Shown here: piece by piece, positions 31,106 through 61,051 of the stretch
Position numbering within the stretch: position 1 is the first letter of the stretch
How the letters are laid out: each line of letters opens with the position of its first letter
Source: Diphasiastrum complanatum
Lineage: Eukaryota > Streptophyta > Lycopodiopsida > Lycopodiales > Lycopodiaceae
Direction: 5' to 3'
Length of the DNA: 64,000 nucleotides
Assembly: GCA_029204225.1 (NCBI GenBank)
Contig: CM055097.1
Location: 13,500,721 to 13,564,720 of the forward strand
Program-made: the position numbers and the translations under genes
Notes under the pieces: generated by a model
Databases searched by the model: none
What the model was told of the DNA's origin: nothing
What the model saw: the letters and a program-made list of their open reading frames with translations, nothing else

Positions 31106-34100
31106 AGAACCCTATCAGATGTTTGTGAGCGGAATAGCATCAAGAGAAAGATTGCCAACCTTTGACGAGCTCACAGGAATCTTGATGCAGAAAGAGCAAC
31201 GACGAGAAATGGTGAAAGCTAGACGTCAGAATACTGATGATCAGGCACTTGCGACACGCCAAAAACAAGACAAGGGCAAGGGCAAGAAGAACTTTAAACA
31301 ACAATTTTCCAAGTCTCGGGAGGATGAGGGATCTTCCACTAAGACCAAGAAGAAAGGCAAGTGCCTCCATTGTGGTAAAAAGGGCTCTTGAAAGAGTGAA
31401 TGTCGCAAATTCCTAGCGGAACAAGGCAAGGGGAAACCAAAACAAGCAGGTAACCTTGTCGATGAGGGTGAGATTGAAGACTCTAGCATCTTCATATCTG
31501 CATTGTCATCTAATCAAGATGATCAAGCGTGATTGACTTGGGAGCCACAAGACGCATGACGGGTAACAAGAATTGGTTCAGTAGCTTGAAAGTTTTGGAT
31601 AATGAAACGTCCATTTCACAAGCAATTGGCGATGTGTGCAAGATCAAGGGGATGGGCACTGTTTCAATCCAACTACCTGATGGCAAAAGCAGGATGATCA
31701 GGGAGGTACTTTACCTACCAGGTTTGAAGAAAAATCTACTTTTTGTTGGAGTCATTACTGATCAAAAGTTGAAAGTAGAATTCACCCATGATTGTTGCTT
31801 TGTGAAGGATGTGAACCAAAAGTTCAAAGTTATTGCGGATGGAGTAAGGGAGCCCAATACAAAATTGTACAGGTTGAATGCTATAATCAAGGAGCAACAT
31901 GGACTCGTATCGTCCATTCCATCGCAAATTGAGTTGTGGCATAAGAGGCTTGGTCACTTGAACTTGGGAAGCCTCAGTTTGATGAGAAAATTGGAGATGG
32001 TAACAAGATTGCCTACCAAAGAAGACCACTTGAAATCGATGTGCGAATCATGTGTATATGGCAAGCAGCATCGAGAGAAGTTCAATAAAGGTGGTGTTGC
32101 AAGAGCAAAGAACATCCTGGATTTAATCCACACAGATTTATGCGGGCCTATGAGAACCATGTCCTTAGGTAAAGCCTTCTATTTCATGACCTTTATTGAT
32201 GATATGTCACGTAAGACTTGGATCTACTTCTTGAAGAAGAAATCATATGCATTTGACAATTTCAAGAGCTTCAAAGCATTGGACGAAAATCAGACAGGTA
32301 GGAAGATCAAAGTCCTAAGATCAGATAGTGGAGGTGAGTACAAGTCTAATGACTTCAATGATCTTTGTGATCAATGTGGGATTCAAAGACAAATTACGCA
32401 AGCTCATACTCATGCTCTCAATGGTGTAGCTGAGTGCAAGAATAGTACGATTGTGGAAAGTGCCAGATCTATGCTAGCTGAGATGAAACTACCAAAAGAT
32501 TTGTGGTCAGAAGCATGCAGTACGGCAGTCTATCTTCAAAATAGAAGTCCTACCATTGCCATACCAAAGATAACACTTGATGAAGCAATCATGAAGAAGA
32601 AGCCAAAGGTGAACCACTTGCGAATCTTTGGATGTAAGGCCTTTGTACACATTCCTAAGGAAGAGAGACGTAAACTTGATGTGAAAGCTATCAAGTGTAT
32701 ATTCCTAGGATATGATGAACATGTGAAGGGCTATAGATGTTTTGATCCAGTGGAAAACAAAATCCATGTAAGTCGTGATGTTATGTTTGATGAATCCAAG
32801 ATGTATGAAGATGAGGATGCTGAGAAAATAGACACATCCAGTGGGAAAGATTGTATAGTGAGGATACCTCCTGATGATGATCCATTCATTGACCTTCCAA
32901 GTGATGAACATGAGGATACATCTCAAGATACTACTACTCAACCCCAAGAGACAGGTTGGAGAGGTAGAGACAAACCTTTTGGTGCAAGAAGGATTGAAGT
33001 TGCAAGTGACAAATGCCAAGGATAAGGATGTACCGTGGGAAACATTTTCACCAGGAAGCCGATCACCTGACAGGAAGCTCTCCAAGGGTTTGAGAGATTG
33101 CTAGAGAGCCGTGACATGGATGACTTTCCAGGATCATCTAGCCAGAGAGAGCTACGAAGATCAACAAGAGAGAAGACACAACCTGAAACGTATGAAGCAA
33201 ATTATGCTCTCTTAGCTAGCATTATTCAAAGCAAAGAACCTTCGACTTATGGTGAAGATGACATTTGGGTCAAGGCAATGGGAGAGGATAAGGAGTCAAT
33301 TGCTAAGCATAGCACATGGGACTTAGTAGACCCACCAGTTGACAAGAAACCCATTGGTTGAAAATGGGTATACAGGACTAAGTACCATGCAGATTGGTGA
33401 TCAAAGGGTATGCACAAAGTAAAGGCATTGACTATGAGGAGACCTTTGCGCCAGTATGTAAGTGGAATACTCTACCCCTACTTGTTGCTTTAGGTTCACA
33501 TTTTGGTTGGCCTTTGCATCAGATGGATGTGAAATCTGCTTTTCTGAATGGTTAGTTATAAGAAGAGGTGTCCATGGATCAACCTGAAGGCTTTGTAGCG
33601 AAGGGACAAAGTATGTCACTTGAATAAAGCGCTTTATGGCCTTAAACAGGCACCACGTGCGTGGTATAGCAGGATTGATGCCTACTTTCGTTCAAAGGGG
33701 ATGGTGAGAACACATTCCCAAATCTATATGTCTTATGCTTTGATGGTATGGTTGCTTTGATTGCTCTTTATGTTGATGACTTGATTATTATGGGAATTAA
33801 TCAAGAGATGATAGACATGATCAAGAAAGACCTCATGGAACAATTTGAGATGACAGATCTCAGCCTGATGCATTACTGCTTTGGAGTAGAGGTGTGGCAA
33901 AAAGGACACGAAGTGAGTTTAACACAAGTGAAGTATGTCAAAGAGTTGCTGCACAAGTTCAGGTTGCATGATTGCAAACCAGTGAATACTCCTATTGAAC
34001 TAGGTAAAAAGCTTTCTAAGCTTGATGAGTCACAATCATTTGATGCTACGCTATATAGGCAGTTAGTAGGGAGCTTGATTTACCTTACCACTAGAACAGA

Positions 34101-34716
34101 TATATGCTATGTTGTTGGCATTGTAAGTCAGTTTATGGCAGCACCTACGAAAACGAATTGGAAGGCATCTAAACGCATTTTGCGTTATGTGAAAGGCACT
34201 TCAGATCATGGCTTGATTTACAGGAATCATGAGGGTTTACCTGAGTTGTGTGGCTATGTGGATGTGGATTGGGGAGGTGACTATGATGATCGTAGATCCA
34301 CCACATGGTATGTATTCCATTTTTGTGGTAGTTGCTTTTCCTGGTCTAGTAAGAAGCAAAGTACAATTGCTCTATCCACCACAGAAGCAGAGTATAAGGC
34401 AATGTGTAGTGCAACACAGGAAGCTATATGGTTGAAACAAATCTTGGAAAAAGTTGGCATGAAGCAGAAAAATCCCACAACTTTACATAGCGACAGTCAT
34501 AGTGGCATTCAGCTAGCAAAGAATCCAGTGTTCCATGCGAAAACCAAACACATTGAGATTCAGTATCACTTTATATGTGAGAGGCTACTAAGTCGTGAAA
34601 TTCATGTTGTTCATTGTAGTACGGAAGAACAACTAGCTGATATTTTCACTAAGCCACTTGTTGGAGAAAAGTTTGATAAGTTTAGATCAAAGCTTTTTGT
34701 ACTTAAAGTTTGTTGA
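31106..34716 (+). pseudogene. Left-arm copia Gag-Pol (5' truncated)
   Basis: Begins inside Gag at the junction with the previous element (EPYQMF). The zinc knuckle (about 31,360) has lost its His and has TGA in place of Trp. A small deletion at about 31,529 breaks the protease frame. The main frame 31,529-33,025 has IDLGATRRMTG (D-L-G-A in place of D-S-G-A), KRLGHLN, CESCVYGKQH, HTDLCGPM, RSDSGGEY and NGVAECKN, so the integrase HHCC and D-D-E residues are all present. 33,098-33,670 is broken at the RT N-terminus. 33,748-34,716 carries YVDD, the RT connection and RNase H (VDVDWGGDYDDRRS, STTEAEYKAM), ending at DIFTKPLVGEKF. Confidence 0.85.
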
Positions 34717-34772
34717 CTATAAAGCTATGTATATGACTGTATAAAAAGTAGACTCTACTTTAAGGGAGAGAG

Positions 34773-35042
34773 TTAGAATTAAAGTAGGATCACTGTGCTA
34801 CTGTAGTGTGGGTCCTATCAGTTGATAAGGATCAGTTGGCCTCAACACGAGGCAAGTCGACGGGACACTCGTCCCGTCAACGGCAACCTGGGTCATGCAT
34901 GGGTTGCCTGAGTGAAAAACTATATGTACAGTGTAATTTCATTTTGAGAAATACAGTTGCTATGTGAGCTTGTTGTGGAGAGTGTGTTCATTCTATGTTA
35001 CTGTGTAGCATGATCTGTGTTCCTGTTTGAAGCAAATTCTAA
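34773..35042 (+). mobile_element. 3' LTR of left-arm copia
   Basis: 270 bp following the purine tract AAGGGAGAGAG at 34,762-34,772. The ends are TTAGAATT...AAATTCTAA, an inverted terminal repeat that is not the usual TG...CA. The mirror copy is 56,600-56,869. No target-site duplication can be given for this arm because the 5' end of the element is lost. Confidence 0.6.
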
Positions 35043-35469
35043 GTGGCTAAGCATAGTTGATGTGACAACTTATGCCATGTACTTCAGATACAAGTTATTA
35101 TCGTTTACGAATAATATTGAAATATCGAGAATATCGAACTTGGTGGCCAATATTTCTAAGTGTGAAAGCTTAATTTGAAAAACTTATTGGTGATGCTCAA
35201 TTAACGAGATCTAACAACCGGTCCAAAAAACAAGACCCATGATCGACTGAAAATGTCAAATAAATGTAGTTTGACAAGAGATCAAAAAAGTATTATCCCT
35301 AATCAATGCGTTGTTATGAGAGCAATTGACACCACATATAAGCCTAATGACTTCACCAACTCAGGCATGGATAACACTTCAACGTACATTTGGAACTTTC
35401 TTTTTATAAATTATGCTTTTATTCTTGAAAAAAGAATTCCCATAAGAAAAAGACGACGAACTTTTTGAC

Positions 35470-36203
35470 AAAAATCAAGAAAATCCGATCGGTCTAAAAC
35501 TAGCAAAGGCGGTAGCTAATAACACAACCTATGTTTAAGGTCATTGATTTTACGATGTTTTCTATTCAACAACATACAAAAATAGTAAGTGTTTTTCTAT
35601 TTGGCCAAAAACCCACATCTGTGGGCCATCCATCTTTTGCATACAAACATTTTCATGTAAGCATAATCGTATATGTGACAAAACTAATATTAAAAAAATA
35701 CATGGAATAATGAATACCTTATATTTTGTAAGGTTACACGATTTTATTTTAAAAAAATTGCATAAGCTACTCACCACCATATGCATTAATTTTAGAAAAG
35801 CGAACAAAAGCGTAAATCTTAGACTTACTATTTCTAAAAGATCTCAAAAGGTACTTATCATCTCTATGAACACGAGCCTAAATCTCAAACTAATGATTTT
35901 TGGGAAGGCGACAACTTAGTGCATATGAGCTTAAGGACTCACCCCTTTACATAAATAATGCCTAAAGTTGTTGCACTCTCTCAGATTTCCTCAAATGGTG
36001 TGACTCGTACCAGTTGAGCTATGGTGCCCAATGTACCAGCAAATGATGAAATCATTTTGTAGTAGACCCTAGCTAGTTAATTGATGTTAGATCTACTTGT
36101 TTGTGCTTTGGAGGTGATGAGCAATGATCTTTTTCCGAGTGTAGTCCATAGGGTGGTAAAAAACAACAACAAATGTCACTCATCAGTCGCCTTTATAAAG
36201 GTT
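35470..36203. pseudogene. Flank plus collapsed 2-ODD remnant (left arm, outer)
   Basis: 35,485-36,050 matches 39,705-40,275, the 5' flank of the intact gene. At about 36,048 the exon 1 start sequence (ACCAGCAAATGATG) joins directly to intron 2 (ATCATTTTGTAGTAGACC). This is followed by the beginning of exon 3 (GTGATGAGCAATG at 36,115) up to 36,203. Most of exon 1, intron 1 and exon 2 were removed by one deletion, apparently between short ATGAT-like matches. The gene is dead. Confidence 0.85.
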
Positions 36204-36289
36204 TTGATTGGTCCATATGAAAGAAAAAATTGAGAAAAAATATATAAAGAATCTTTACAAAGGGTCTTTTTTGGATTTAGAGCTCCTCT

Positions 36290-36950
36290 AATCCTTGGGA
36301 TATTGTGAATACAAAATTATGGAAATATATGTCCTCTTACAAGTCATGACAGAGAGAATGTAATACAAAAGTTGATTTAAGAAAATCATGAATCATTAGA
36401 AAAAGTTATTTTCGATATTAGAATAGAATCTGAATAGATGCAAGTAATATTGCATTCTATTCATTTGAGGAATATACAATTACTGAAAGATGTGTAACTA
36501 TTGACAAAGAAGTCTAAAAACTACAAACAAAAGCGACAATCTTGCAAGGATATTCAAAATCTCTCAAGAGGAGGTTATTGGAAAAGGAGCCGTGCATCCA
36601 GTTACGTTTCTGGGTTGGGTTGATCCTCTTCTTGGATCTTGGTTTTTCACTTATCTAAGCATCAATGGCTCTAGATCTTCTCCTCTTGAGGTTGATCTTC
36701 TCAAGGGAGGTGAACAATGGAAAGGAAACTTACCTAATGGATTCTAACGATCTCTTCCAAAGGGGATTTACTAACACCTATTTTGCTTGAGTTTGATTTT
36801 GTGGATTAGTTGGATGAAGAAAAGTGCTAATGATCATTCAAGAATGTGATAGCATGATTAACAACAACAAACAATCATTCATCATCTACAATCAATCATA
36901 CACAAGAAAATAGGAGTACTTCGCACAAAAAGCAAGAATGGTAGGAGGAG

Positions 36951-37046
<96 letters not shown>

Positions 37047-37547
37047 CAAGGAAAAGTGATTACAAAATGGTGTCACATCCCTCTTTATAAGGGTTAGGGA
37101 TTTTGGTGCACCCAAAACCATGTGCCATAAGAACTTGACTTCATATAAAGTTGTAAACCAAATTGCATTTTAAACTATTTGGGTCATTTTTTATTTTAGG
37201 CCCATTCGAGCATAGATCTACTTTTACTTCTCGTGCCATAGGCTGACAAGGACAATGCACCTTCTACAGTATATCTAAATCCTTATGCTGACTCGGCCAT
37301 GATTTTATTTCTGTCGCCGTAAAATGTGTTGGTGAGGCGTTGGGCTTTGCTTTTGCTCATTGGCCGGTCCACAACTTGTCGACTTCTTTGGCATTGGTGT
37401 TCCCAGTACATATGGATTCTGGAACTCCCTATTTGTTAGACTGTGATTTGTCGACGCTCCTTAACGTAGTTTGGCGGCTCGACTCCGTCACTTGATATTC
37501 GTTATGCTCTTTTAGTAGCTGGAATCCATTAGAAGAATCTTCTAACA
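36290..37547 (-). mobile_element. Unit R, X part and LTR-like segment (copy C, left arm)
   Basis: Minus-strand LTR start at 37,547 (TGTTAGAAGATT) following the G-rich tract that reads CGCCCCACTATTG on plus. The LTR-like segment holds a TATAAA motif near 37,085 and the CT array at 36,954-37,041. X-segment homology continues to about 36,290, truncated relative to copy A. The mirror copy is 54,040 to about 55,400. Confidence 0.65.
36954..37042. repeat. (CT)n microsatellite
   Basis: About 44 CT units. Mirror of the GA array at 54,570-54,649, with different length. Confidence 0.98.
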
Positions 37548-38665
37548 CGCCCCACTATTGTAAATTTGGTGACAGTCCCTTGGCACCTGCGTATGTCTTT
37601 GGCGTTGGCATGCGTGGCAACGTGAGACCGTGGTGAAGGAAGGTGAAAAACGGGTATAGACAAGAGGGGGGTGAGAATCGATGAAAAGTGAGAAAAAAAA
37701 ATTGCAACAAAATTTAACTTTAGAGGGTGGGAACAGAGAGAGCGAGTGAGGAAATAAAAGAAAAATAAGAAAGATAAAATGAAACAAAGGGTGAAAAACA
37801 AGACAATAAAAGTGAGTCCTTCAATACTTTTTGTGGACTTCTTTTTCTTGTTTTTTATTTTCTTCAAATAGTTTTTTTTTTTGAAAGATATAGATGATAG
37901 TTAAATGCTTCATGAATCCTTCTCAAGTTGTTTTCCCTTCAAATCTTCGGCATCTCGGATCTGATGGTGGATGTGAGAAACCATGCGGACGAGTCGGAAC
38001 CACAATGAGCTGCACGTGGTGGATTGCGAGTGGATTGGGCCGAACGTTGGGTGCATATTTTTCAGGAATCTCGTCGTATACCATTGTTCCAACCTCGCGA
38101 TATTGACGAAAAATGTTGCCAATAGGCGATGGTAGGTTCAGCATAGAGGGATTTGATCCTCGATGGTCGTCATCTTGAAGGCTTTATTGGGGTTGAAGTA
38201 GTACTCGCCAAAGTATAAATCCCATCTGGTATCCACTTAAGCGGCAGTCAGAAGCGTCTCCACATTATAGTAGGCTTCCAGAACAATGGGATCTAGAGAA
38301 TTAGTCGCGTCAGTCATGAACCGGTTGAGGGCCCTGGTGAAGTCGACCATTATTTTTCAACCCTGTACAAACTTTATTAGTGGCCAATTGTAGCCCCCGA
38401 CGCTCATCCTAGGAGTCTTCAATGTCGTCCATGATCATCTGTGGGGCATGGGTTGATAAGTTGGGTCTGCCCTTAATGTCGTCGAAGCTGTGAGATATTC
38501 CTTAATGAGCTTGGGGCATGAGCACCGCCTTTCACCATTCTGGTGGAGGGTCCAGAAAGGCCAAGACATTGGCTAGTGTTAGCTTGAGGGGATCGTCGAG
38601 CTTTTTGGGTTACTTGTGCCGCCTCTTGTCTTGACGTCGGGATACTTTTTGACAAAGAGGGTCGG
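37548..38665 (-). pseudogene. Unit R internal region, 3' part (copy C)
   Basis: Minus-strand internal sequence next to the LTR. Broken frames at 38,144-37,910 contain IFRQYREVGTMVYDEIPEKYAP, in parts, as in the right arm. Further upstream the minus frame has RWDLYFGEYYF and the TKVYPD/VKTRGG region, where a base loss breaks the frame near 38,610. The poly-T tract at 37,871-37,881 is shared by all copies. No known domain. Confidence 0.5.
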
Positions 38666-39385
38666 CTACTCTGAATCAGATACTGAAAAGACCTTCTGGT
38701 ACCAGTGCTGATGCACAGCTACAGGATCAATGCGAGTGTCGTTAGTGCATGGAGGAATGGTAGAGGTGGATGGAAGATCAGTTTTGGGGGGTGATGAAAT
38801 GATAGGTGGTGAAGAGCTGGCATGAGGCGAAATGATGCGAGGTGGTGAAATGGCACGAGGCAGTATAATGCCGAGAGGAGGAGATGTGATCTTGAGATCG
38901 AGCGTGTCTGGATCAACTTGGAGGGTGGAGGAGGTAATTTTGGCCAATGTGGCGTACTGGAGATCCTGGTCGAAGGTGCGGTCTCCGCCAGTTTGGAGGT
39001 CGAAATGAGGGAATGTGAGTTGGAGCTTTTGGTAGTCGATGGATTCTATGAAGGAGCAAGCATGGTGGATGGATGGATCTTGGACAATGGCATTATAATG
39101 TGCCAAGGCAACATTGTAGCAGATAATGAGGGTGGCAGGATGGTATTGGTGGCAATCATAATAGAGTGTCCGGAGCTCGTTATAGGTGAGGCGGAGGGCT
39201 TCAAGAAGGGTAGTGGTGGTGGTATGGCAATGCTTAATGTGCACTACCAATGCGCTTGATGGCTTCTCTACTCCTACTGGCTTGTATTCCGATGCGTACC
39301 GTACCCACGTGTGTTGTACATAAACAACTTTCTTTCTAATTAATGCAGTTGTTATGTAAATAAGCATATATGAGCATTTTCTCAT
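38666..39385 (-). CDS. Unit R ORF (unrecognised, 239 codons, probably truncated)
   Basis: ATG at 39,385, stop at 38,666. N-terminus MRKCSYMLIYITTALI is hydrophobic; the middle has a run of Thr (HTTTTTL) and an LRTLYYDCHQYHPATL stretch. Residues about 165-220 are rich in Pro, Ser and Ile in a repeating PPxxIxxP pattern. The C-terminus reads VHQHWYQKVFSVSDSE and then a stop. In the right-arm copy the same place reads DSEQPTLFVKKYPDGKTRGG, so a CAG-to-TAG change probably truncates this copy. The gene lies inside a putative LTR repeat and in two of the other copies. I know no matching family; capsid or nucleic-acid binding roles would be guesses. Confidence 0.5.
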   Translation of the reverse strand: MRKCSYMLIYITTALIRKKVVYVQHTWVRYASEYKPVGVEKPSSALVVHIKHCHTTTTTLLEALRLTYNELRTLYYDCHQYHPATLIICYNVALAHYNAIVQDPSIHHACSFIESIDYQKLQLTFPHFDLQTGGDRTFDQDLQYATLAKITSSTLQVDPDTLDLKITSPPLGIILPRAISPPRIISPHASSSPPIISSPPKTDLPSTSTIPPCTNDTRIDPVAVHQHWYQKVFSVSDSE

Positions 39386-39611
39386 GTTTTAGGTTTAAAT
39401 GTGAAGCTTGTGATATTTCAATGATTAAGAACAATGATTGATGTGCTTATCTATTTGTGGATATGGTGAAAATTACATTGAATGGATTTTCCCAAGTTTA
39501 CCAAAACATGGTGATAACTTTTAAGGTAAAAAACGTATTTCATAATTTGCCAAAGCCTATTCAATGGGCACGGAGAATGTTTAGAAAAAGGCCCACTAAG
39601 TTCGTACAGCT

Positions 39612-39614
<3 letters not shown>

Positions 39615-39685
<71 letters not shown>
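39615..39685. repeat. (GA)n microsatellite at the outer edge of the palindrome core
   Basis: About 35 GA units. The mirror array at 50,603-50,625 has about 11. Confidence 0.98.
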
Positions 39686-39686
<1 letters not shown>

Positions 39687-40253
39687 CCGTCGAACGAAGA
39701 AGCAGATCGGTCTAAAAAATAGCAAAGGCGGTAGCGAACAACACAACATATGTTTAAGGTCATTGATTTTACGATGTTTTCTATTCAACAACATACAAAA
39801 ATAGTAAGTGTTTTTCTATCTGGCCAAAAACCCACATCTGTGGGCCATCCATCTTTTGCATACAAACATTTTCATGTAAGCATAATTGTATACCCGACAA
39901 AAATAATATTAAAAACATACATGGAATAATAAATACCTTATGTTTTGTAAGGTTGCACGATTTTGTTTTAAAAAAATTGCATAAGCTACTCACCACCATA
40001 TGCATTAATTTTAGAAAAGCCAAGAAAAGCGTAAATCTTAGACTTACTATTTCTAAAAGATCTCATAAGATACTTATCATCTCTATGAACACGAGCCTAA
40101 ATCTCAAACTAATGATTTTTGGGAAGGCGACAACTTAATGCATATGAGCTTAAGGCCTCACCCCTTTACATAAATAATGCCTAAAGTTGTTGCTCTCTCC
40201 CAGATTACCTCAAGTGGTGTGTCTCTTCTCTCACTGTACCAGCTGAGCTAGCT

Positions 40254-42920
40254 ATGGCGCCCAATGTACCAGCACATGATGATGCGCTCTATAATTCCCA
40301 TGCCTCCTCATCGTTTCTTCTTAGTCACCACCGCCCATCCACACCCAGACGCACTCCACCTCCCTCGCATCATGCTCAGCAACAACATCCATGTCACATG
40401 GACTCGTCCCAGCTCGTAGCCCACGATCAGTTTTTCACACAAGGCGCCGAGATGCTTCCTTTAGTTGATCTAGGATTGCTCTGCCACGCAGATAAAGCTG
40501 AAGTGCAGAAGCTAGTGATGGCGGTCAAAGAGTGGGGATTTTTTGAAGTAGCTAACTCTGGTGTGCCTCTCAAGCTGCTCAGTGAAATTGAGGAGCAGGT
40601 ATCCCATGTATTTGCTCTTCCACTTGAAGCCAAGACCAGGGCTGAACCTGCTGCAGGAAGCTTTCATGGTTACCTTACCAAGTCATCAGGGGAAGATGGT
40701 AAGATGCTGCAATTAAGCGAAGCTCTTCGGCTTCCTTTGAACCCGCAGCATAGGTCGGACATGATAATTCAGTTCTGGCCAGAGGGTAATGAGGCATTCA
40801 GGTAGCCCATCTTTAATCTCCGACTCAGATGTCCGAAGCTTAATAGATCATCTACTAATAAGTGTTAACCTCAATTTGCAGAGCAAATATTCTAGTGCGG
40901 ATTAATATTGCCCATGACGTTATCAGTAGGGTTCGCTGAGTGTAAGAGATTGGGCAGCGGGAGGCATAAATAGCATAGTCGCCACCAGCACAAGCAAGTA
41001 AAATCTACTGAGAATTATTCCACCTGTACTCATGCGATTCAAATCTTTGTCACCTGCATTAGCAATAGAGATCACACAAAAGCCTTGCTGCAACACAAGT
41101 CATTGAGGCGCCCACATGCAACCTGCTGCATGAAAAAACAGATAGAGAACTTATTCCTATCAGAGATTCACAACATAGAAGTTGGAAGGAAAAACTCTGA
41201 GTGTGATGAACAAGTCTTATCACATATTCGTAGAAAATTAACCATATGAATGTATAAAGAGATTTGGCTTTCCTTTTTCTCCACAATTATTTTTTCTCTA
41301 AGCAACCTTTTAGTCATTTCATAAATCACTTCTATCTATCTATCTTTTAATCTACTTCCTTAGGTAAAAGTGGCGCATGATTTCGCGCTTACTGTCCACG
41401 TCGATATTGACAGTTCCATGTTCAGTTCACTCTGTAAATAATAAAGAAAAAAGTCTTTGATAATAGTCCACAATAGATATTCGTTGACATTGGACAGTGT
41501 TTAGTGAATGCTGGCCCGTTTGTTAAGAGGTTGAAGTTCACATTTTTCTAGCACTAAGAGTGTTGTTGACGTCTTTTGAATTTGCAGTTCTGTGGTTGAG
41601 AAGTATATTGCAGCTGTTGACACGGTTCTCCTGCAGCTTTTAAAAAGTTTAGCTTTGGGACTAGGACTGGATCCTCTGCAATTTACGCGTAATCTGTCCA
41701 ACGATGCGAATTTTTCAGCATTGCGTATGAATATTTATCCTGCTTCTTCTCAGTCATCGCCAACTCTAGGCTTGGTAGCTCATTCCGATGCTTCGATTCT
41801 GACGATTCTGCATCAGAGCAGCGTGGCTGGATTGCAGATTCGAAAGGATGAGAAATGGATTGCCATAAAACCACGGCTGGGTTTCTTTGTTGTGAACGTG
41901 GGAGATATGCTGCAGGTCTGCCTTGACTATATATGACAACTTTCTTAATTACTCACCAACTTTCATGTGTTTTGCACTTGAATGCTGTTGATCCATGTTA
42001 ATTATGTTTGATACCATACACGCTGGTGCTAGGGGCCAAGTGCAGACCTCAAAATCATAAATATCACAATGCTCAAACTCTCAATCAAAGGGGTGAGGCA
42101 TGAAAGTTCAAGTGTGCAACCATTCATTTCCATCGTATTCCTGAGTTAATCCATGTTAACTTCATTGACTATCATATGCGGCAACAAACCAAAATAGTAG
42201 AAGGAAACTAGAAGGGTAGACAGAAGCGTCGTTAATGTCACAAGGTAAGAGAGAGAGAGAGACGAGAGATCACGAACGTTCGCAACGAGGAAGGGCGAAC
42301 TTGATGAAAAAAAGACAGGAAATGACTCTAACATTGTGAGCAGCAAAATAATCATTTCGTTAATTAAGCTTGATCACTTTCACCAACTATAATTTGTCAA
42401 CATAGAAATGACTAACCCCAATATTATATTTTGGTCACAGAGAGATTGGTCATGTGTAACAAACCTGTGAATGATCGATACTATGATGTAGTTAGATTTA
42501 TCTACTATATACTCATGATCCTTCATAATTGTAAGTTGCAAAGATGATATCATTTTGTAATAGACCCTGGCTAGTTAATTGATGTTAGATCTACCTGTTT
42601 GTGCTTTGTAGGTGATGAGCAATGATCTTTTTCCGAGTGTAGTCCATAGGGTGGTAAAAAACAACAACAAATGTCGCTCATCAGTCGCCTTTATAAAGGT
42701 AACTCATCCAGAATTTATAGTGGGACCAGTACCAGAACTTGTCTCACAGCAGCAGCGAACATCACCGTATCACCCATTTACAGCGGAAGAGTACTATACA
42801 AGTATGACTTCTCATGGACTTCTAGATGGCAAGTCTAACCTTGACAGATTCAGAATCAGTCCTACTGTAGAACATCAACGTATCACCCATTTACAGCGGA
42901 AGAGTACTATACAAGTATGA
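40254..42920 (+). CDS. 2-oxoglutarate/Fe(II)-dependent dioxygenase (left copy)
   Basis: Three exons: 40,254-40,801 (the likely start is the ATG at 40,398, MDSSQL; the upstream 48 codons are low-complexity and overlap a tRNA-like motif), 41,588-41,915 and 42,612-42,920. Splice sites are GTAGCC/TTGCAG and GTCTGC/TTGTAG, and frame is kept. From 40,398 the protein is 346 residues, normal for plant 2-ODDs. The N-terminal DIOX_N-type domain includes LPLVDLGLL and WGFFEVANSGVP; the C-terminal 2OG-FeII_Oxy fold has His200-x-Asp202 (AHSDAS), His256 (VHRVV) and Arg266-x-Ser268 (CRSS). Such enzymes are cytosolic oxidases of hormones or specialised metabolites; the substrate cannot be told from sequence. 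A 113-bp tandem duplication in exon 3 alters the last residues. Confidence 0.85.
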
Positions 42921-42987
42921 GTTCTCATAGACTTCTAGATGGCAAGTCTAACCTTGACAGATCCAGAATCAGTCCTAGCTGACGAAG
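42762..42987 (+). repeat. 113-bp tandem duplication in and after exon 3
   Basis: The segment starting ATCACCGTATCACCC at 42,761 recurs from 42,874 (ATCAACGTATCACCC), a 113-bp period. As 113 is not a multiple of three, the second unit is read in another frame and the ORF stops at 42,918-42,920. The ancestral end, SPS-stop, is visible in the second unit near 42,978. The mirror copy in the right arm has it too, but the 26-kb pseudogene does not. Confidence 0.85.
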
Positions 42988-43604
42988 ATATTTGAAAAAT
43001 GGTGATGAACAATGACAACATCATTGCATTGACAGAGAATGAGAAGAAGAAACGGAGTCATATGCATGTGCATTGTGTTACACTAATCAAAGAATGGCAA
43101 AAGCATCGCAGATGCATTTAAGAAGCTAATATCATGAAAAAATCTTGTTGGTGCTTGTTATAAACATACATATATGCTAATATTTGTGCATATTTAGACT
43201 TTGAGAAATTGCTCAAGGTTGTAAAGAGGTTCAAGTAATATGCAAACTTTTGTTTATTGTCCAGTTTTGATGTCTCCCTTTGGTTGAAGCATGCAAATTT
43301 CCTCGTTCAAGTAAATATCTAGGAAATCTTAAAGTCTATTCAATGAACCTCCTACTACAAGAAGTCAAATGCTTTCCAAAACTATTCTTGAGCATATTTT
43401 AAAAAGATGCCAAAACATGGGTGTGAGGGTGGTCATCAACGCAAGGCATTCGTGCATCAACTGACATCGACTATGCCTCAAAGTTATTCTTCATATAATC
43501 CTTGGAATTAGGGTCCTTTTTTAATTTGAGGACTCATATAGCGTTGTTGAAGGAAAAAATTCATACCTTGATATAGCCCCAGTATACTAGAGAATTGAGT
43601 TTTG
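42988..43604 (+). other. 2-ODD 3' flank
   Basis: No gene. Shared with 26,340-26,902 and, inverted, with 46,684-47,300. Joins the X segment at about 43,605. Confidence 0.6.
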
Positions 43605-44969
43605 TCAGACTCCTTTTTGAACTCAACCTACCTTCAAACAACAATAAACAATGCATAGATTGATCTCAAAACTTAAGCTTTATTCAATTCTTAGCAAGCA
43701 AGTAGCTTCCACCAAAACAACATTAAAGAGCTGGCTGCCTTGTCTCCACCTAACCTTCACTGCGTAGAATGTGATAAGGAATGTCTCCTCTCTAGGCTCA
43801 CTTATGCATACCCTATCTGTTCCCGATTAGAGTTTCAAACTAGAAATGCCACAGAGGATGAGAAAAGAATTCTATTCAAGTAAAACAATATTGTTTTTTT
43901 TCTAGCCCACACCACTCCCAAGTCGTACACCATTCCCAATCATATAACCAGCTCGTGTACAGTTATGGTTAAGCAAAAAAAATTTGTACTCATGGTCACG
44001 TTCTGTTAACAAATATGATTTTGAATGTATATTCTCTCTTGACATTTGAAATCAATATGAGCGTCATCTTGAAATCAAAAACAAAATATGAGTCCCATCT
44101 TGGCATTGAAAACAAAATCCAAGCGCCACCTTGACATTGAAATCAAAATATCAGTGCCATCTCCTATTTGAATATGGAGGGAATCACCATTATGGAAGCA
44201 TTCATGAAAATTGGTTATTTTCCATCAGGTAAGAATATATTTGCATTCAAATATTTTTATAGTATTTCTGTTATGAATACTATGAACGTTGTGACTGGTT
44301 TTGTGCTTTTCAAGATCACGACTTTGTGTCGTTTTCATATGGACATTCCTATTGACTTGGCACCTTCATAAAACAGAGGAGTCAAAGGATCAACGATATC
44401 TCTGCTGAAAAAGTTTTACATCATATGAGTGAAGGAAAAAAGGATTTGGATTTGTGGACAGATGGGCCTTTGTATCCTCAAGGTCCTAATACCCTCCTAC
44501 ATCATCTTGTCTTATCCTCAACAACTCAATTAGTCATATGGATATGCAATGGGCATAATGGTTCCTTGGGATATTCTGAATCATTACAAAATTATTTAAA
44601 TACATTTTCAATGCAGAGGATTCAGTTCTTGGAGAGTACTCAAATCAGGTGTATGTCCTCTTACTATCATGAGAGAGAGAATGTAATACAAAGGTTGATG
44701 TAAGAAAATCATGAATCATTAGAAAAAGTTATTTCAAATATTAGAATAGAATCTGAATAGATGTAAGTAATATTGCATTCTATTCATTCGGATAATATGC
44801 AATTACTGAAAGATGTGGAACTATTGACAAAGAAGTCTAAAAACTACGAACAAAAGCGACAATCTTGAAGGGATATTCAAAATCTCTCAAGAGGAGGTTA
44901 TTGGAACAGAAGGAGCCGTGCATTTAGTTACGTTTTTGGGTTGGGCTGATTCTCTTCTTGGATTTTGGT
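43605..44969 (-). repeat. Unit R, X segment (left core arm)
   Basis: Best preserved copy of X. Plus-strand frames 44,168-44,371 (with YFPSGKNIFAFKYFY) and 44,425-44,703 (DLWTDGPLYPQGPN, 92 codons) are open here but broken in copy A. No family recognised. Homology breaks off at 44,969, the palindrome junction. Confidence 0.7.
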
Positions 44970-45318
44970 TGTAATCACTTTTCCTTGAGAAGAGAGAGAG
45001 AGAGAGAGTATCTACTCCTACTATTCTTGCTTTTTGTGTGGATTACTCCTATTTTCTTGTGTATGATTGATTGTAGACGATGAATGCTTGTTTGTTGTTG
45101 TTAATCATGCTATGACATTCTTGAATGATCTTTAGCACTTTCCTTCATCCAACTAATCCACAAAATCACACTCAAGCAAAATAGGTGTTAGTAAATTCCC
45201 TTTGAAAGAGATCGTTAGGATCCATTAGGTAGGTTTCCTTTCCATTGTTCACCTCCCTTGAGAAGATCAACCTCAAGAGGAGAAGATCTAGAGCCGTTGA
45301 TGCCTAGATAAGCGAAAA
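44970..45318. other. Palindrome spacer (asymmetric, 349 bp)
   Basis: Single-copy within the palindrome. Read on the minus strand from 45,318, it continues the X segment of the right arm into the unit R LTR sequence, ending with a short GA tract (44,992-45,008 on plus) and TGATTACAA at the left. So it is colinear with the right arm and foreign to the left arm, which is the layout of an inverted duplication with one fold-back junction at 44,969/44,970. Confidence 0.85.
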
Positions 45319-47366: not shown

Positions 47367-50033
47367 TCATACTTGTATAGTACTCTTCCGCTGTAAATGG
47401 GTGATACGTTGATGTTCTACAGTAGGACTGATTCTGAATCTGTCAAGGTTAGACTTGCCATCTAGAAGTCCATGAGAAGTCATACTTGTATAGTACTCTT
47501 CCGCTGTAAATGGGTGATACGGTGATGTTCGCTGCTGCTGTGAGACAAGTTCTGGTACTGGTCCCACTATAAATTCTGGATGAGTTACCTTTATAAAGGC
47601 GACTGATGAGCGACATTTGTTGTTGTTTTTTACCACCCTATGGACTACACTCGGAAAAAGATCATTGCTCATCACCTACAAAGCACAAACAGGTAGATCT
47701 AACATCAATTAACTAGCCAGGGTCTATTACAAAATGATATCATCTTTGCAACTTACAATTATGAAGGATCATGAGTATATAGTAGATAAATCTAACTACA
47801 TCATAGTATCGATCATTCACAGGTTTGTTACACATGACCAATCTCTCTGTGACCAAAATATAATATTGGGGTTAGTCATTTCTATGTTGACAAATTATAG
47901 TTGGTGAAAGTGATCAAGCTTAATTAACGAAATGATTATTTTGCTGCTCACAATGTTAGAGTCATTTCCTGTCTTTTTTTCATCAAGTTCGCCCTTCCTC
48001 GTTGCGAACGTTCGTGATCTCTCGTCTCTCTCTCTCTCTTACCTTGTGACATTAACGACGCTTCTGTCTACCCTTCTAGTTTCCTTCTACTATTTTGGTT
48101 TGTTGCCGCATATGATAGTCAATGAAGTTAACATGGATTAACTCAGGAATACGATGGAAATGAATGGTTGCACACTTGAACTTTCATGCCTCACCCCTTT
48201 GATTGAGAGTTTGAGCATTGTGATATTTATGATTTTGAGGTCTGCACTTGGCCCCTAGCACCAGCGTGTATGGTATCAAACATAATTAACATGGATCAAC
48301 AGCATTCAAGTGCAAAACACATGAAAGTTGGTGAGTAATTAAGAAAGTTGTCATATATAGTCAAGGCAGACCTGCAGCATATCTCCCACGTTCACAACAA
48401 AGAAACCCAGCCGCGGTTTTATGGCAATCCATTTCTCATCCTTTCGAATCTGCAATCCAGCCACGCTGCTCTGATGCAGAATCGTCAGAATCGAAGCATC
48501 GGAATGAGCTACCAAGCCTAGAGTTGGCGATGACTGAGAAGAAGCAGGATAAATATTCATACGCAATGCTGAAAAATTCGCATCGTTGGACAGATTACGC
48601 GTAAATTGCAGAGGATCCAGTCCTAGTCCCAAAGCTAAACTTTTTAAAAGCTGCAGGAGAACCGTGTCAACAGCTGCAATATACTTCTCAACCACAGAAC
48701 TGCAAATTCAAAAGACGTCAACAACACTCTTAGTGCTAGAAAAATGTGAACTTCAACCTCTTAACAAACGGGCCAGCATTCACTAAACACTGTCCAATGT
48801 CAACGAATATCTATTGTGGACTATTATCAAAGACTTTTTTCTTTATTATTTACAGAGTGAACTGAACATGGAACTGTCAATATCGACGTGGACAGTAAGC
48901 GCGAAATCATGCGCCACTTTTACCTAAGGAAGTAGATTAAAAGATAGATAGATAGAAGTGATTTATGAAATGACTAAAAGGTTGCTTAGAGAAAAAATAA
49001 TTGTGGAGAAAAAGGAAAGCCAAATCTCTTTATACATTCATATGGTTAATTTTCTACGAATATGTGATAAGACTTGTTCATCACACTCAGAGTTTTTCCT
49101 TCCAACTTCTATGTTGTGAATCTCTGATAGGAATAAGTTCTCTATCTGTTTTTTCATGCAGCAGGTTGCATGTGGGCGCCTCAATGACTTGTGTTGCAGC
49201 AAGGCTTTTGTGTGATCTCTATTGCTAATGCAGGTGACAAAGATTTGAATCGCATGAGTACAGGTGGAATAATTCTCAGTAGATTTTACTTGCTTGTGCT
49301 GGTGGCGACTATGCTATTTATGCCTCCCGCTGCCCAATCTCTTACACTCAGCGAACCCTACTGATAACGTCATGGGCAATATTAATCCGCACTAGAATAT
49401 TTGCTCTGCAAATTGAGGTTAACACTTATTAGTAGATGATCTATTAAGCTTCGGACATCTGAGTCGGAGATTAAAGATGGGCTACCTGAATGCCTCATTA
49501 CCCTCTGGCCAGAACTGAATTATCATGTCCGACCTATGCTGCGGGTTCAAAGGAAGCCGAAGAGCTTCGCTTAATTGCAGCATCTTACCATCTTCCCCTG
49601 ATGACTTGGTAAGGTAACCATGAAAGCTTCCTGCAGCAGGTTCAGCCCTGGTCTTGGCTTCAAGTGGAAGAGCAAATACATGGGATACCTGCTCCTCAAT
49701 TTCACTGAGCAGCTTGAGAGGCACACCAGAGTTAGCTACTTCAAAAAATCCCCACTCTTTGACCGCCATCACTAGCTTCTGCACTTCAGCTTTATCTGCG
49801 TGGCAGAGCAATCCTAGATCAACTAAAGGAAGCATCTCGGCGCCTTGTGTGAAAAACTGATCGTGGGCTACGAGCTGGGACGAGTCCATGTGACATGGAT
49901 GTTGTTGCTGAGCATGATGCGAGGGAGGTGGAGTGCGTCTGGGTGTGGATGGGCGGTGGTGACTAAGAAGAAACGATGAGGAGGCATGGGAATTATAGAG
50001 CGCATCATCATGTGCTGGTACATTGGGCGCCAT
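47367..50033 (-). CDS. 2-oxoglutarate/Fe(II)-dependent dioxygenase (right copy)
   Basis: Mirror image of the left gene. Exons on the minus strand: 50,033-49,486 (likely ATG at 49,889), 48,699-48,372 and 47,675-47,367. The encoded protein appears identical to the left copy: the exon 2 difference seen near 48,411 (CCG for CCA) is silent. Fe ligands His-x-Asp and His, and the Arg-x-Ser 2-oxoglutarate clamp, are kept, as are splice sites and the 113-bp exon 3 duplication. The two genes are convergent: their 3' ends face the spacer 4.4 kb apart. Whether both are transcribed cannot be seen; convergent palindromic copies could give read-through hairpin RNA. Confidence 0.85.
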
Positions 50034-50625: not shown

Positions 50626-51540
50626 AGCTGTACGAACTTAGTGGGCCTTTTTCTAAACATTCTTCGTGCCCATTGAATAGGCTTTGGCAAATTATGAAAT
50701 ACGTTTTTTACCTTAAAAGTTATCACCATGTTTTGGTAAACTTGGGAAAATCCATTCAATGTAATTCTCACCATATCCACAAATAGATAAGCACATCATT
50801 GATTGTTCTTAATCATTGAAATATCACAAGCTTCACATATAAACCTAAAACATGAGAAAATGCTCATATATGCTTATTTACATAACAACTGCATTAATTA
50901 GAAAGAAAGTTGTTTATGTACAACACACGTGGGTACGGTACGCGTCGGAATACAAGCCAGTAGGAGTAGAGAAGCCGTCAGGCGCATTGGTAGAGCACAT
51001 TAATCATTGCCATACCACCACCACTACCCTTCTTGAAGCACTAACGACACTCGCATTGATCCTCTAGCTGTGCATCAGCACTGGTACCAGAAGGTCTTTT
51101 TAGTACCTGATTTAGAGTAGTCGACCCTCTTTGTCAAAAAGTATCTCGACGTCAAGACAAGAGACGGCACAAGTTACCCAAAAAGCTCGACGATCCCCTC
51201 AAGCTAACACTGGCCAATGTCCTGGCCTTTCTGGACCCTCCACCAGAATGTTGAAAGGCGGTGCTCATGCCCCAAGCTCATTAAGGAATATCTCACAGCT
51301 TCGACGACCTTAAGGGCAGACCCAGCTTATCAACCCATGTGAGAAGGATTCATGAAGCATGTAACTATCATCTGTATCTTTCAAAAAAAAAAAACTATTT
51401 GAAGAAAATAAAATACAAGAATTTAGAAGTCCACAAAAAGCATTGAAAAACTCACTTTTATTTTCTTGTTTTTCACCCTTCGTTTCATTTTATCTTTCTT
51501 ATTTTTCTTTTATTTCCTCACTCACATTTCGCAAACAAAA
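50626..51540 (+). pseudogene. Unit R internal region, internally deleted (copy F)
   Basis: Plus strand. ATG at 50,852 opens the MRKCSYMLIYITT frame of unit R, but after LLEAL it jumps to TTLALIL and stops at 51,067: about 500 bp of the middle are missing relative to 38,666-39,385. The next part (51,070-51,340) has the FVKKYLD region in broken frame. At about 51,340 another deletion fuses it to the poly-A/MKHVTII region. It lies tandemly before the fuller copy D. Confidence 0.7.
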
Positions 51541-51765
51541 GTCCAAACTAGCACAATGCTTATAAAATCATCAAGTGAAAGTTTTAAATAGCCACATCGG
51601 TTTTAAAAAGGAAAAAATAAATAAAAAACCACAATAATATATACACTAACAACTCCATAAATAATGCTACTCACTTTGTGACAAGATACTCTAAGAACAA
51701 TGCAACAACAAATTACCAATGGAATTGTTGCACTTACTTCTTTCCTAGAAAAACACTTCCTATAA
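51541..51765. other. Short segment without homology seen elsewhere in the window
   Basis: AT-rich 225 bp between the two tandem unit R pieces of the right arm. Found in no other copy, so it is an insertion or an older segment lost elsewhere. Confidence 0.45.
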
Positions 51766-51965: not shown

Positions 51966-52190
51966 GCTGTACGAACTTAGTGTGCCTTTCTCTAAACATT
52001 CTCCGTGCACATTGAAAAGACTTTGACAAATAATGAAATACGTTTTTTACCTTAAAGGTTATCACCATGTTTTGGTAAACTTGGGTAAATCCATTCAATG
52101 TAATTCTCAGCATATCCACAAATAGATAAGCACATTAATGATTGCTCCTTATCATTGAAATATCACAAGCTTCACATTTAAGCCAAAGAC

Positions 52191-54567: not shown

Positions 54568-54651
<84 letters not shown>

Positions 54652-56170: not shown

Positions 56171-56599
56171 TTTTTGTCAAAAAGTTCGTCTTTTTCTTAT
56201 GGGAATTCTTTTTTCAAGAATAAAAGCATAATTTATAAAAAGAAAGTTTCAAATGTACGTTGAAGTGTTATCCATGCCTGAGTTGGTGAAGTCATTAGGC
56301 TTATATGTGGTGTCAATTGCTCTCATAACAACACATTGATTAGGGATAATACTTTTTTGATCTCTTGTCAAACTACATTTATTTGACATTTTCAGTCGAC
56401 CATGGGTCTTGTTTTTTGGACCGGTTGTTAGATCTCGTTAATTGAGCATCACCAATAAGTTTTTCAAATTAAGCTTTCACACTTAGAAATATTGGCCACC
56501 AAGTTCGATATTCTCGATATCTCAATATTATTCGTAAACGATAACAACTTGTATCTGAAGTACATGGCATAAGTTGTCACGTCAACTATGCTTAGCCAC
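56171..56599. other. Spacer between 2-ODD remnant and copia LTR
   Basis: Mirror of 35,043-35,470. No gene seen. Confidence 0.6.
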
Positions 56600-56869
56600 T
56601 TAGAATTTGCTTCAAACAGGAACACAGATCATGCTACACAGTGACATAGACAGAAAACACTCTCCAGAGCAAGCTCACATAGCAACTATGTTTCTCAAAA
56701 TGAAATTACATTGTACATATAGTTTTTCACTCAGGCAACCCATGCATGACCCAGGTTGCCGTTGATGGGACGAGTGTCCCGTCGACTTGCCTCGTGTTGA
56801 GGCCAATTGATCCTTATCAACTGATAGGACCCACACTACAGTAGCACAGTGATTCTACTTTAATTTTAA
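56600..56869 (-). mobile_element. 3' LTR of right-arm copia
   Basis: 270 bp, mirror of 34,773-35,042, ends TTAGAATT and TTTTAA on plus (one terminal base change). A 28-bp piece with the LTR start (ACTTTAATTCTAA) recurs at 61,645-61,671, where the 5' LTR should be. Confidence 0.65.
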
Positions 56870-56925
56870 CTCTCTTTCTTAAAGTAGAGTCTACCTTTTA
56901 TACAGTCATATACATAGCTTTATAG

Positions 56926-59900
56926 TCAACAAACTTTAAGTACAGAAGGCTTTGATCTAAACTTATCAAACTTTTCTCCAACAAGTGGCTTAGTGAAAAT
57001 ATCAGCTAGTTGTTCTTCCGTACTACAATGAACAACATGAATTTCACGACTTAGCAGCCTCTCACATATAAAGTGATACTGAATCTCAATGTGTTTGGTT
57101 TTCGCATGGAACACTGGATTCTTTGCTAGCTGAATGCCACTCTGACTGTCGCTATGTACAGTTGTGGGATTTTTCTGCTTCATGGCAACTTATTCCAAGA
57201 TTTGTCTCAACCATATAGCTTCCTGTGTTGCACTACACATTGCCTTATACTCTGCTTCTGTGGTGGATCTTACTAGACCAGGAAAAGCAACTACCACAGA
57301 AATGGAATACATACCATGTGGTGGATCTACGATCATCATAGTCACCTCCCCAATCCGCATCCACATAGCCACACAACTCAGGTAAACCCTCATGCTTCCT
57401 GTAAATCAAGCCATAATCTGAAGTGCCTTTCACATAACGCAAAATGCGTTTAGATGCCTTCCAATGCGTTTTCGTAGGTGCTGCCATAAACTGACTTACA
57501 ATGCCAACAACATAGCATATATCTGGTCTAGTTGTGGTAAGGTAAATCAAGCTCCCTACTAACTGCCTATACAGCGTAGCATCAAATGATTGTGACTCAT
57601 CAAGCTTAGAAACCTTTTTACCTAGTTCAATAGGAGTATTCACTGGTTTGCAATCCTGCAACCTAAACCTGTGCAGCAACTCTTTGACATACTTCACTTG
57701 TGTTAAACTCACTTCGTGTCCTTTTTGCCACACCTCTACTCCAAGGCAATAATGCATCAGGCTGAGATCTGTCATCTCAAATTGTTCCATGAGGTCTTTC
57801 TTGATCATGTCTATCATCTCTTGATTAATTCCCATAATTATCAGGTCATCAACATAAAGAGCAATCAAAGAAACCATACCATCAAAGCATAAGATGTATA
57901 GATTTGGATCAGAATGTGTTCTCACCATCCCCTTTGAACGAAAGTAGGCATCAATCCTGCTATACCATGCACGTGGTGCGTGTTTAAGACCATGAAGCGC
58001 TTTCTTCAAGTGACATACTTTATTTTCCTATCCCTTCGGTACAAAGCCTTCAGGTTGATCCATGAACACCTCTTCTTCTAACTCACCATTTTTGAAAGCA
58101 GATTTTACATCCATCTGATGCAAAGGCCAACCAAAATGTGAAGCTAAAGCAACAAGTAGGGGTAGAGTATTCCACTTACATACTGGCACGAAGGTCTCCT
58201 CATAGTCAATGCCTTTACTTTGTGCATACCCTTTGATCACCAATCTTGCCTTGTGCTTTGCTATACTTCCATCTACATGGTACTTAGTCATGTATACCCA
58301 TTTTCAACCAATGGGTTTCTTGGCAACTGGTGGTTCTACTAAGTCCCATGTGCTATGCTTAGCAATTGACTCCATCTCCTCTCCCATGGCCTTGACCCAA
58401 ATGTCATCATCCTTCGCTTCACCATAAGTCGAAGGTTCTTTGCTTTGAATAATGCTAGATAAGAGAGCATAATTTGCTTCATATGTTTCAGGTTGTGTCT
58501 TCTCTCTTGTTGATCTTTGTAGCTCTCTCTGGCTAGATGATCCTGGAAAGTCATCCATGTCACGGCTCTCCAAAAATCTCTCAAACCATTGGGGAGCTTC
58601 CTGTCAGGTGATCGGCTTCCTGATGAAAATGTATCCCACGGTACATCCTTATCCTTGGCATTTGTCACTTGCAACTTCAATCCTTCTTGCACCAAAAGGT
58701 TTGTCTCTACCTCTCCAATCTGTCTCTTGGGGTTGAGTAGTAGTATCTTGAGATGTGTCCTCATGTTCATCACTTGGAAGGTCAATGAATGGATCATCAT
58801 CAGGAGGTATCCTCACTATACCATCTTTCCCACTGGATGTGTCTATCTTCTCAACATCCTCGTCTTCATACATCTTGGATTCATCAAACATAACATCACG
58901 GCTTACATGGATTTTGTTTTCCACTGGATCAAAACATCTATAGCCCTTCACATGTTCATCATATCCTAGGAATATACACTTGATAGCTTTCACATCAAGT
59001 TTACGTCTCTCTTCCTTAGGAATGTGTACAAAGGCCTTACATCCAAAGATTCACAAGTGGTTCCCCTTTGGCTTCTTCTTCGCTAATGCTTCCTCAAGTG
59101 TTATCTTTGGTATGGCAATGGTAGGACTTCTATTTTGAAGATAGAATGCCGTACTGCATGCTTCTGACCACAAATCTTTTGGTAGTTTCATCTCAGCTAG
59201 CATAGATCTGGCACTTTCCACAATTGTACAATTCTTGCGCTCAGCTACACCATTGAGATCATGAGTATGAGCTTGCGTAATTTGTCTTTTAATCCCACAT
59301 TGATCACAAAGATCATTGAAGTCATTAGACTTGTACTCACCTCCACTAGTTGATCTTAGGACTTTGATCTTCCTACCTGTCTGATTTTTTTCCCAATGCT
59401 TTGAAGCTCTTGAAATTGTCAAATGCATCTGATTTCTTCTTCAAGAAGTAGATCCACGTCTTACGTGACATATCATCAATAAAGGTCATGAAATAGAAGG
59501 CTTTACCTAAGGACATGGTTCTCATAGGCCCGCATAAATCTGTGTGGATTAAATCCAGGATGTTCTTTGCTCTTGCAACACCACCTTTATTGAACTTCTC
59601 TTGATGCTGCTTCCTATATACACATGGCTCGCACATCGATTTCAAGTGGTCTTCTGTGGTAGGCAATCTTGTTACCATCTCCAATTTTCTCATCAAACTG
59701 AGGCTTCCCAAGTTCAAGTGACCAAGCCTCTTATGCCACAACTCAGTTTGCGATGGAATGGACGATACCAGTCCATGTTGCCCGTTGATTGTAGCATTCA
59801 ACCTGTACAATTTTGTATTGGGCTCCCACACTCCATCAGCAATAACTTTGAACTTTTGGTTCACATCCTTCACAAAGCAACGATCATGGGTGAATTCTAC

Positions 59901-61051
59901 TTTCAACTTTTGATCAGTAATGACTCCAATAGAAAGTAGATTTTTCTTCAAACCTGGTACGTAAAGTACCTCCCTGATCATCTTGCTTTTGCCATCAGGT
60001 AGTTGGATTGAAACGGTGCCTATCCCCTTGATCTTGCACACATTGCCAATTGCTTGTGAAACGGACGTTCCATTATCCAAAACTTTCAAGCTACTGAACC
60101 AATTCTTGTTACCCGTCATGTGTCTTGTGGCTCCCAAGTCAATATACCACGCTTGATCATCTTGATTGGATGACAATGTAGATATGAAGATGCTAGAGTC
60201 TTCAATCTCACCCTCATTGACAAGGTTACCTGTTTGTTTTGGTTCCCCTTGCCTTGTTTCGCCAAGAATTTGCGATATTCACTCTTCCAATGGCCCTTTT
60301 TACCACAATGGAAGCACTTGCCTTTCTTCTTGGTCTTACTGGAAGATCCCTCATCCTCCCGAGAGTTGGAAAATTGCTGTTTAAAGTTCTTCTTGCCCTT
60401 GCCCTTGCCTTGTTTTTGGCTTGTCGCAAGTGCCTGATCATCAGTATTCTCATGTCTAGCTTTCACCATTTCTCGCCGTTGCTCTCTCTGCATCAAGATT
60501 CCTGTGAGCTCGTCAAAGGTTGGCAATCTTTCTCTTGATGTTATTATGCTCACAAACATCTGATAGGGTTCTGCAATGCCGCACAATGCATTGTGCACCA
60601 GCTCCACATCACGTATGCGCTTAGAATAGAATGCAGTTCATCCCTCATTGTTTTGATTCTGGTCATCCCTCATTGATGCTTGTTTGGGTGTAACAACATC
60701 ACAAATGTGGGTAATGATGTGATCCTCCTCTTTTTTTTGTCGAACACTTTGATATCTGCTTCATTTAACAGTCTTCTCTCATCAACTCTGATGACTTCCC
60801 ACATCTTTCTCCATCAGTATGTTTTTCATTTTGAATTTCCACACTGCATAGTTGTAAATCCCGTCCAATTTGCTACTTTCACTCAAAATGGACTCTCCCA
60901 TGTTTGCCATCGCAAAACTGCTTGAAACTTCTGCCGTAGGCTGAAAGCAGTATGCCAAGGCCAACTGTGATGTTAAAAGTTGACCTGCATTTTTTCCCTT
61001 ACCAGGCCACTCGCCGCTTTTCCCCAAATTTGAAAGCCAAATCGGCGTCAC
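56926..61051 (-). pseudogene. Right-arm copia Gag-Pol, nearly full length but broken
   Basis: Minus strand. Gag starts near 60,907 (MANMGESI; KLDGIYNYAVWKFKMKNIL). 60,607-60,116 has the Gag tail with zinc knuckle CFHCGKKGHWKSEY, where the last Cys is Tyr. 60,176-59,373 has IDLGATRHMTG (protease, D-L-G-A), KRLGHLN, MCEPCVY and HTDLCGPM. 59,428-59,051 has RSTSGGEY, where the second catalytic Asp of integrase is Thr, then NGVAERKN. 58,993-58,304, 58,291-58,028 and 58,009-57,245 hold the linker and RT, including YVDD. A 23-bp loss near 57,265 breaks RNase H before 57,183-56,926. Lesions differ from those in the left arm. Confidence 0.85.

Follow-up and report, generated by a model that had tools for sequence, protein, structure and literature searches.

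The palindromes of the mammalian X and Y chromosomes are old, much larger than the structure described here, and have arms that are kept alike by conversion. In plants, the closest case that we found is the W chromosome of the willow Salix purpurea, for which two consecutive palindromes (200 kb) and gene conversion are reported (PMC7023750). Two-break inversions of tandemly arrayed genes, named 'delinver' alleles, are reported to be frequent in Arabidopsis and rice after CRISPR (clustered regularly interspaced short palindromic repeats) cutting (PMC10600118). Literature titles and abstract openings dealt with palindromes of sex chromosomes, with inverted triplications in humans and yeast and with tandem arrays; among them we found none on the present locus, though one may exist. 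Here we consider a 64-kb stretch of the genome of the lycopod Diphasiastrum complanatum (the window hereafter; contig CM055097.1, or C6, positions 13,500,721-13,564,720, in an assembly of 1.74 Gb in 5,176 contigs), which carries a palindrome with a dioxygenase gene in each arm. This palindrome is part of a cluster of tandemly arrayed genes, one member of which is inverted, and both direct units and reciprocal joints are found in it. It is probable, in our view, that a tandem array of about 74 kb with four dioxygenase copies had its second unit inverted by two breaks followed by end-joining.

The window was compared with itself by BLAST, and its flanks (C6:13.37-13.64 Mb) were joined to it and the whole compared with itself; cluster-related sequence extends at least to C6:13.736 Mb, past the region compared in detail. 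The window contains the 29.5-kb inverted repeat announced by the original prediction, made from the letters alone, and the outer and inner limits agree with it within 1 bp. The outer inverted match joins 31,106-39,818 to 60,572-51,746 (8,893 columns, 92.6%, E=0) and the inner one joins 39,195-44,970 to 51,042-45,318 (5,776 columns, 98.9%, E=0). The arms are mirrored as predicted, but the homology is not continuous in the sense proposed, as positions 39,195-39,818 of the left arm fall in both matches and positions 51,043-51,745 of the right arm in neither main match. The mirroring does go beyond transposons, for the dioxygenase gene and its flanks are mirrored too, and this rules out two transposons inserted in opposite orientation.

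This first palindrome is not isolated, since its right arm extends as far as window-equivalent 64,153 and has a second mirror image past the window. There the arm sequence goes on as a 19.6-kb unit repeated in direct orientation, its copies 99.3% alike; unit positions below are counted along this unit. With X1 to X5 for the unit copies and S for a 347-bp spacer, the order is X1-S(+)-X2 reversed-S(+)-X3-S(-)-X4-S(-)-X5, and this order and orientation, like the reciprocal junctions, the divergence pattern and the identical proteins reported below, stand in the assembly sequence itself. X1 (C6:13,531,826-13,545,690, plus strand; window 31106..44970) is the left arm, an incomplete unit without the first ~3.6 kb, which matches unit positions 3,587-12,376 at 92.4% and 13,563-19,289 at 98.8%. 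The spacer follows at 44971..45317 on the plus strand, and X2 (C6:13,546,038-13,564,873) is a whole tandem unit in reverse, forming the right arm from 45318 to the window end at 64000 on the minus strand and on to window-equivalent 64,153. X3 (C6:13,565,217-13,584,505), X4 (C6:13,584,853-13,604,192) and the incomplete X5 (C6:13,604,532 to about 13,614,142) are all on the plus strand; X3 and X4 lie side by side in direct order, 99.3% identical over 19,689 columns, and the X5 part is likewise direct. X2 and X3 form a second, larger palindrome with arms of about 19 kb (78 substitutions in 19,128 aligned sites), the centre of which, at C6:13,564,874-13,565,220 (window-equivalent 64,154-64,500), lies just past the window end and holds the same 347-bp spacer, again on the plus strand; at both direct junctions S is on the minus strand. 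The S copies at C6:13,564,874, 13,584,506 and 13,604,193 are 99.7, 99.7 and 97.1% identical to that of the window, and older S copies elsewhere in the cluster 81-97%.

The joints between units and spacers are what relate the two palindromes to each other. Read in unit direction, both direct junctions have the undisturbed joints ...GGATTTTGGTT|TTTCGCTTATC, from unit end into S, and ...GTGATTAC|AAAATGGTGTC, from S into unit start. Near 13.390 and 13.461 Mb, older, diverged copies likewise run from unit end through S to unit start, an order which is therefore taken as ancestral. At the first palindrome (left inversion junction, 44960..44985, plus strand) the unit end GGATTTTGGTT is fused to GTAATCAC, the far edge of S, and at the second GATAAGC is fused to AAAATGGTGTC. 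The two centres are reciprocal junctions sharing two breakpoints: reversing the S-X2-S block of a direct array yields the first joint with every base in place and the second short of 4 bp (GAAA), so that one inversion explains both centres. Microhomology at the joints is 2 bp at most. The first joint (25 bases) and the second each occur once in the assembly; the right edge of S in its undisturbed form occurs three times, always in the array.

From this we infer the following course of array growth, order of events, repair and retention. A 19.6-kb segment with one dioxygenase gene would have been amplified head to tail, probably via unequal exchange between shared repeats, so that about 74 kb (C6:13.540-13.614 Mb) came to hold four complete copies of the gene. 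A double-strand break at the left edge of an S copy, and a second where the following S copy ends on the right, would have freed a 19.5-kb piece (S, second unit, S), which would have been rejoined backwards by end-joining. This one inversion would have created both mirror centres, the palindrome of the window at its left edge and the larger palindrome at its right edge, and the additional dioxygenase dosage would be what is retained. Two other readings were considered and rejected. After a staggered-break inversion, the spacers flanking the inverted piece would face opposite ways, which does not fit here, as both of those adjoining X2 have one and the same orientation. The view of S as an element bounded by terminal inverted repeats was discarded because a self-comparison of S with 60-bp flanks returned the arms, an internal match of 25 columns (84%) and some that were shorter, with no terminal pair.

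Substitutions were counted pairwise between units over aligned sites, separately for an inner part (unit positions 14,000-19,636) and an outer part (3,600-12,376). In the inner part, with 5,628-5,637 sites for each pair, X1 and X2 differ at 5 sites (of 5,637), X1 and X3, X1 and X4, and X2 and X3 at 12 each, X2 and X4 at 11, and X3 and X4 at 16. In the outer part X1 differs from X2, X3 and X4 by 398, 398 and 397 substitutions in 8,450-8,480 sites (398/8,475 for X2), against 42/8,777 for X2-X3, 62/8,788 for X2-X4 and 44 for X3-X4 (8,777-8,788 sites). The arms of the first palindrome, 0.09% apart in the inner part and 4.7% in the outer, are thus not alike over their whole length and this palindrome lacks one uniform age, whereas those of the second are 0.4% apart throughout. 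Because the outer part of X2 matches X3 and X4 and differs from X1, X2 reads as a tandem unit that was later flipped; judged by these counts, it belongs with the direct units over its whole length and is no copy of its mirror partner.

The same counts contradict the segmental inverted duplication of one arm proposed originally. A related explanation would make X2 an inverted duplicate of X1, with the arms homogenised near the centre by gene conversion, and could point to X1 and X2 being the closest inner pair (5 differences against 11-16) with variants at unit positions 14,214, 15,233 and 15,664 in common. We consider it extremely improbable, given that X2 resembles X3 and X4 rather than X1 in the outer part and that the identical spacer and breakpoints come again at the second centre. 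Arm-to-arm conversion restricted to the inner part may nevertheless have taken place within the explanation by a tandem array and a later flip.

A replicative origin, by fork stalling with template switching or by origin-dependent inverted-repeat amplification (ODIRA), giving an inverted triplication, would account for the identity of both spacers. The forward-reverse-forward order with short-spacer centres seen here is also reported as its expected product (PMC4689423), and a 6-bp interrupted inverted repeat (ATTTTG/CAAAAT) was noticed by eye within a few bp of both S edges. However, the joints lie outside that 6-bp repeat, and triplicated copies should be equally alike, which differs from what is found (398 substitutions for outer X1-X2, 42 for X2-X3). 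Had a fold-back occurred where X1 ends, X1 should moreover have been copied, and X2 is no copy of it. The outer-arm divergence disfavours ODIRA as well as a local fold-back with copying of X1, and we regard a replicative origin as very unlikely.

The divergence profile of X1 bears on how an array of this kind may have grown. Its identity to the other units jumps from ~84-95% to ~95-100% per 100 bp near C6:13,539,900-13,540,000 (window ~39,200), and the switch point sits within a repeat that is present twice in X3. Such a pattern is what misaligned repeats would leave behind if they underwent unequal exchange, or conversion, during array growth. Among X2 to X5, 19 sites divide the units two and two over unit positions 1-9,578. 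They fall in 4 runs, a number below that of almost all of 200,000 shuffles (P=0.002; two of the sites are adjacent and perhaps one event), and the units have thus exchanged tracts, an exchange that could predate the inversion.

As the units are 99.3-99.6% alike over 19.6 kb, which is difficult for assemblers, the true structure might be a direct tandem array, or two joined haplotypes, in which the assembler set the second unit backwards. Part of the cluster has a second copy on at least one unplaced contig, C2604: over the 10 of its 49 kb that were compared, it differs from another part of the cluster on C6 by 4 mismatches in 10,025 aligned bases and by a length difference of 1.49 kb. If C2604 is the other haplotype, the allelic difference is about 0.04%, and X2 and X3 (78/19,128) are ten times more different than these putative alleles (P=2e-10), which speaks against an artefact. 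Further, the 270 kb compared contain no N, and the S edges are no repeat boundaries in a direct array, where every unit has the same flanks, so an assembler would have no reason for two cuts there. A simple fold-back is unlikely, and as the source of the outer arms a fold-back error is excluded by their 398 differences (4.7%). Altogether we think an assembly artefact unlikely. The length difference itself, at C2604:32,149, corresponds to C6:13,467,702-13,469,197; the stretch is absent from C2604 and has 5 full-length matches in the cluster, and because other cluster copies hold it, the difference looks like a deletion in C2604.

Three observations weigh against a single inversion with end-joining in a direct array. 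The two breaks are merely 347 bp apart in unit register, for which a simple ratio gives about 3.5% with random breaks, and the explanation does not account for this proximity. X2 is without ~490 bp (unit positions ~12,775-13,265) that X3 and X4 hold, which takes an extra event. Finally, the inner parts of X1 and X2 (5/5,637) show no clear excess of differences over the one putative allele pair (4/10,025; Fisher P=0.30). With inner arms about as close to each other as these putative alleles are, the structure looks young or recently homogenised, and the survival of an unstable palindrome, put forward in the original prediction, is for the same reason weak. An array that is recent, with one unit flipped, is what the locus looks like. 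Another explanation would see the S edges as recurrent points of breakage or recombination, at which the unit flips repeatedly in the species while exchange with its direct neighbours keeps the four copies identical. We hold this to be improbable; if true, such recurrent flipping would be a small natural counterpart of sex-chromosome palindromes outside any known sex chromosome.

Turning to the gene, the two intact copies predicted in the window are indeed present, each with three exons, GT-AG introns and a single open frame, and they encode identical proteins. Copy 1 has its exons at 40254..40801, 41588..41915 and 42612..42920 (the last with the stop codon) on the plus strand, and copy 2 at 49486..50033, 48372..48699 and 47367..47675 (likewise with the stop) on the minus strand, its exact ends being obtained by mirror arithmetic. 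A 113-bp tandem duplication at 42,757-42,977, near the gene end, alters the C-terminus. Two further complete copies with the same protein begin outside the window at C6:13,579,790 and C6:13,599,477. Relative to copy 1, the coding sequences of X1 to X4 have 0, 1, 1 and 2 differences, all synonymous; the four copies keep their GT-AG introns and all encode one identical 394-residue protein. The protein of the three-exon model scores above the Pfam cut-offs for DIOX_N (62.3 bits) and 2OG-FeII_Oxy (91.2 bits), and the best relative with a solved structure is Arabidopsis At5g05600 (6lsv, E=7e-42), in which identical residues align with HSD, H and RSS of the predicted protein. We take H-x-D...H to be the metal-binding motif and R-x-S the 2-oxoglutarate-binding motif of 2-oxoglutarate/Fe(II) dioxygenases; from domains and motif residues, the gene is predicted to encode a plant-type enzyme of this family. 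The domains and the solved relatives single out no function or substrate.

Among the 105 of 516 candidates that were scored, the best relatives elsewhere in the assembly match by exon at 75-87% on contig C14 and at 77-83% on C18; the unplaced contig C43 has a match as good as that on C18, and next in rank comes a group on C19. Against the C14 gene, the non-synonymous and synonymous divergences (dN and dS) over 375 codons are 0.088 and 0.207, and their ratio of 0.42 suggests some constraint, not strong. The array is flanked left and right by older broken copies; gene fragments lie at 13.386, 13.412, 13.442, 13.464, 13.522 and 13.527 Mb, and at nine places there are small matches to the last exons only. 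In the left part of the window, broken dioxygenase pieces with parts of the first and last exons lie at 21,593-21,848 and 25,849-26,902. The fragment at C6:13,386,702-13,388,142, which covers exon 1 and the greater part of intron 1, shares 99.8% identity with copy 1, although its flanks are at about 93-97%, and is possibly a conversion tract 150 kb from the array.

Other repeats occur in the arms and around them. A degraded copia-type retrotransposon, with integrase and reverse transcriptase pieces in separate frames, lies in the left arm (31529..34716, plus strand), and its mirror copy, also fragmented, in the right arm (57245..60176, minus strand). The left end of the palindrome, at window 31,090-31,110, is by eye an apparent fusion of two different copia elements, and an open frame at 30,936-31,391 crosses this apparent joint. 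Window 18,493-19,734 holds a degenerate self-complementary tandem repeat of ~1.2 kb with TTCTAGAA-type motifs, which matches itself on both strands, beside a T-rich 77-bp tandem repeat at 17,263-17,847. A frame at 14,692-15,138 matches DUF7869 and is probably, we assume, a transposon remnant. Outside the window, two direct repeats of 1,754 bp, 100% identical and 6.7 kb apart (C6:13,486,661-13,495,153), may be the long terminal repeats of a retrotransposon whose insertion is very recent, and direct repeats of 1,888 bp with 99.9% identity lie 56 kb apart at C6:13,433,494-13,435,381 and 13,489,457-13,491,344.

The locus gives a base-resolution view of how one two-break inversion in a tandem array may produce two mirror centres without inverted duplication, and the divergence profile along the arms, which tells the models apart, is usable on other palindromes. 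It also marks a recent rise in copy number of one dioxygenase amid many broken older copies; the general picture is left unchanged. Like the palindromes of the mammalian X and Y chromosomes, it has large mirrored arms carrying genes, but its arms are in part 4.7% apart and in part young. With the 'delinver' alleles it shares two breaks in a tandem gene array and a piece rejoined backwards; those breaks are made by CRISPR, whereas the breaks here would be natural, as deduced from the sequence (PMC10600118). The resemblance to the W chromosome of Salix purpurea lies in two consecutive palindromes on a nuclear plant chromosome, with highly alike stretches of ~20 kb common to the arms, genes in the arms and exchange between copies; that is a sex chromosome, and unlike there the mirror centres here would come from one inversion in a direct array (PMC7023750). 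An array with one flipped unit is a known kind of rearrangement, which is seen here with unusually clear breakpoints.

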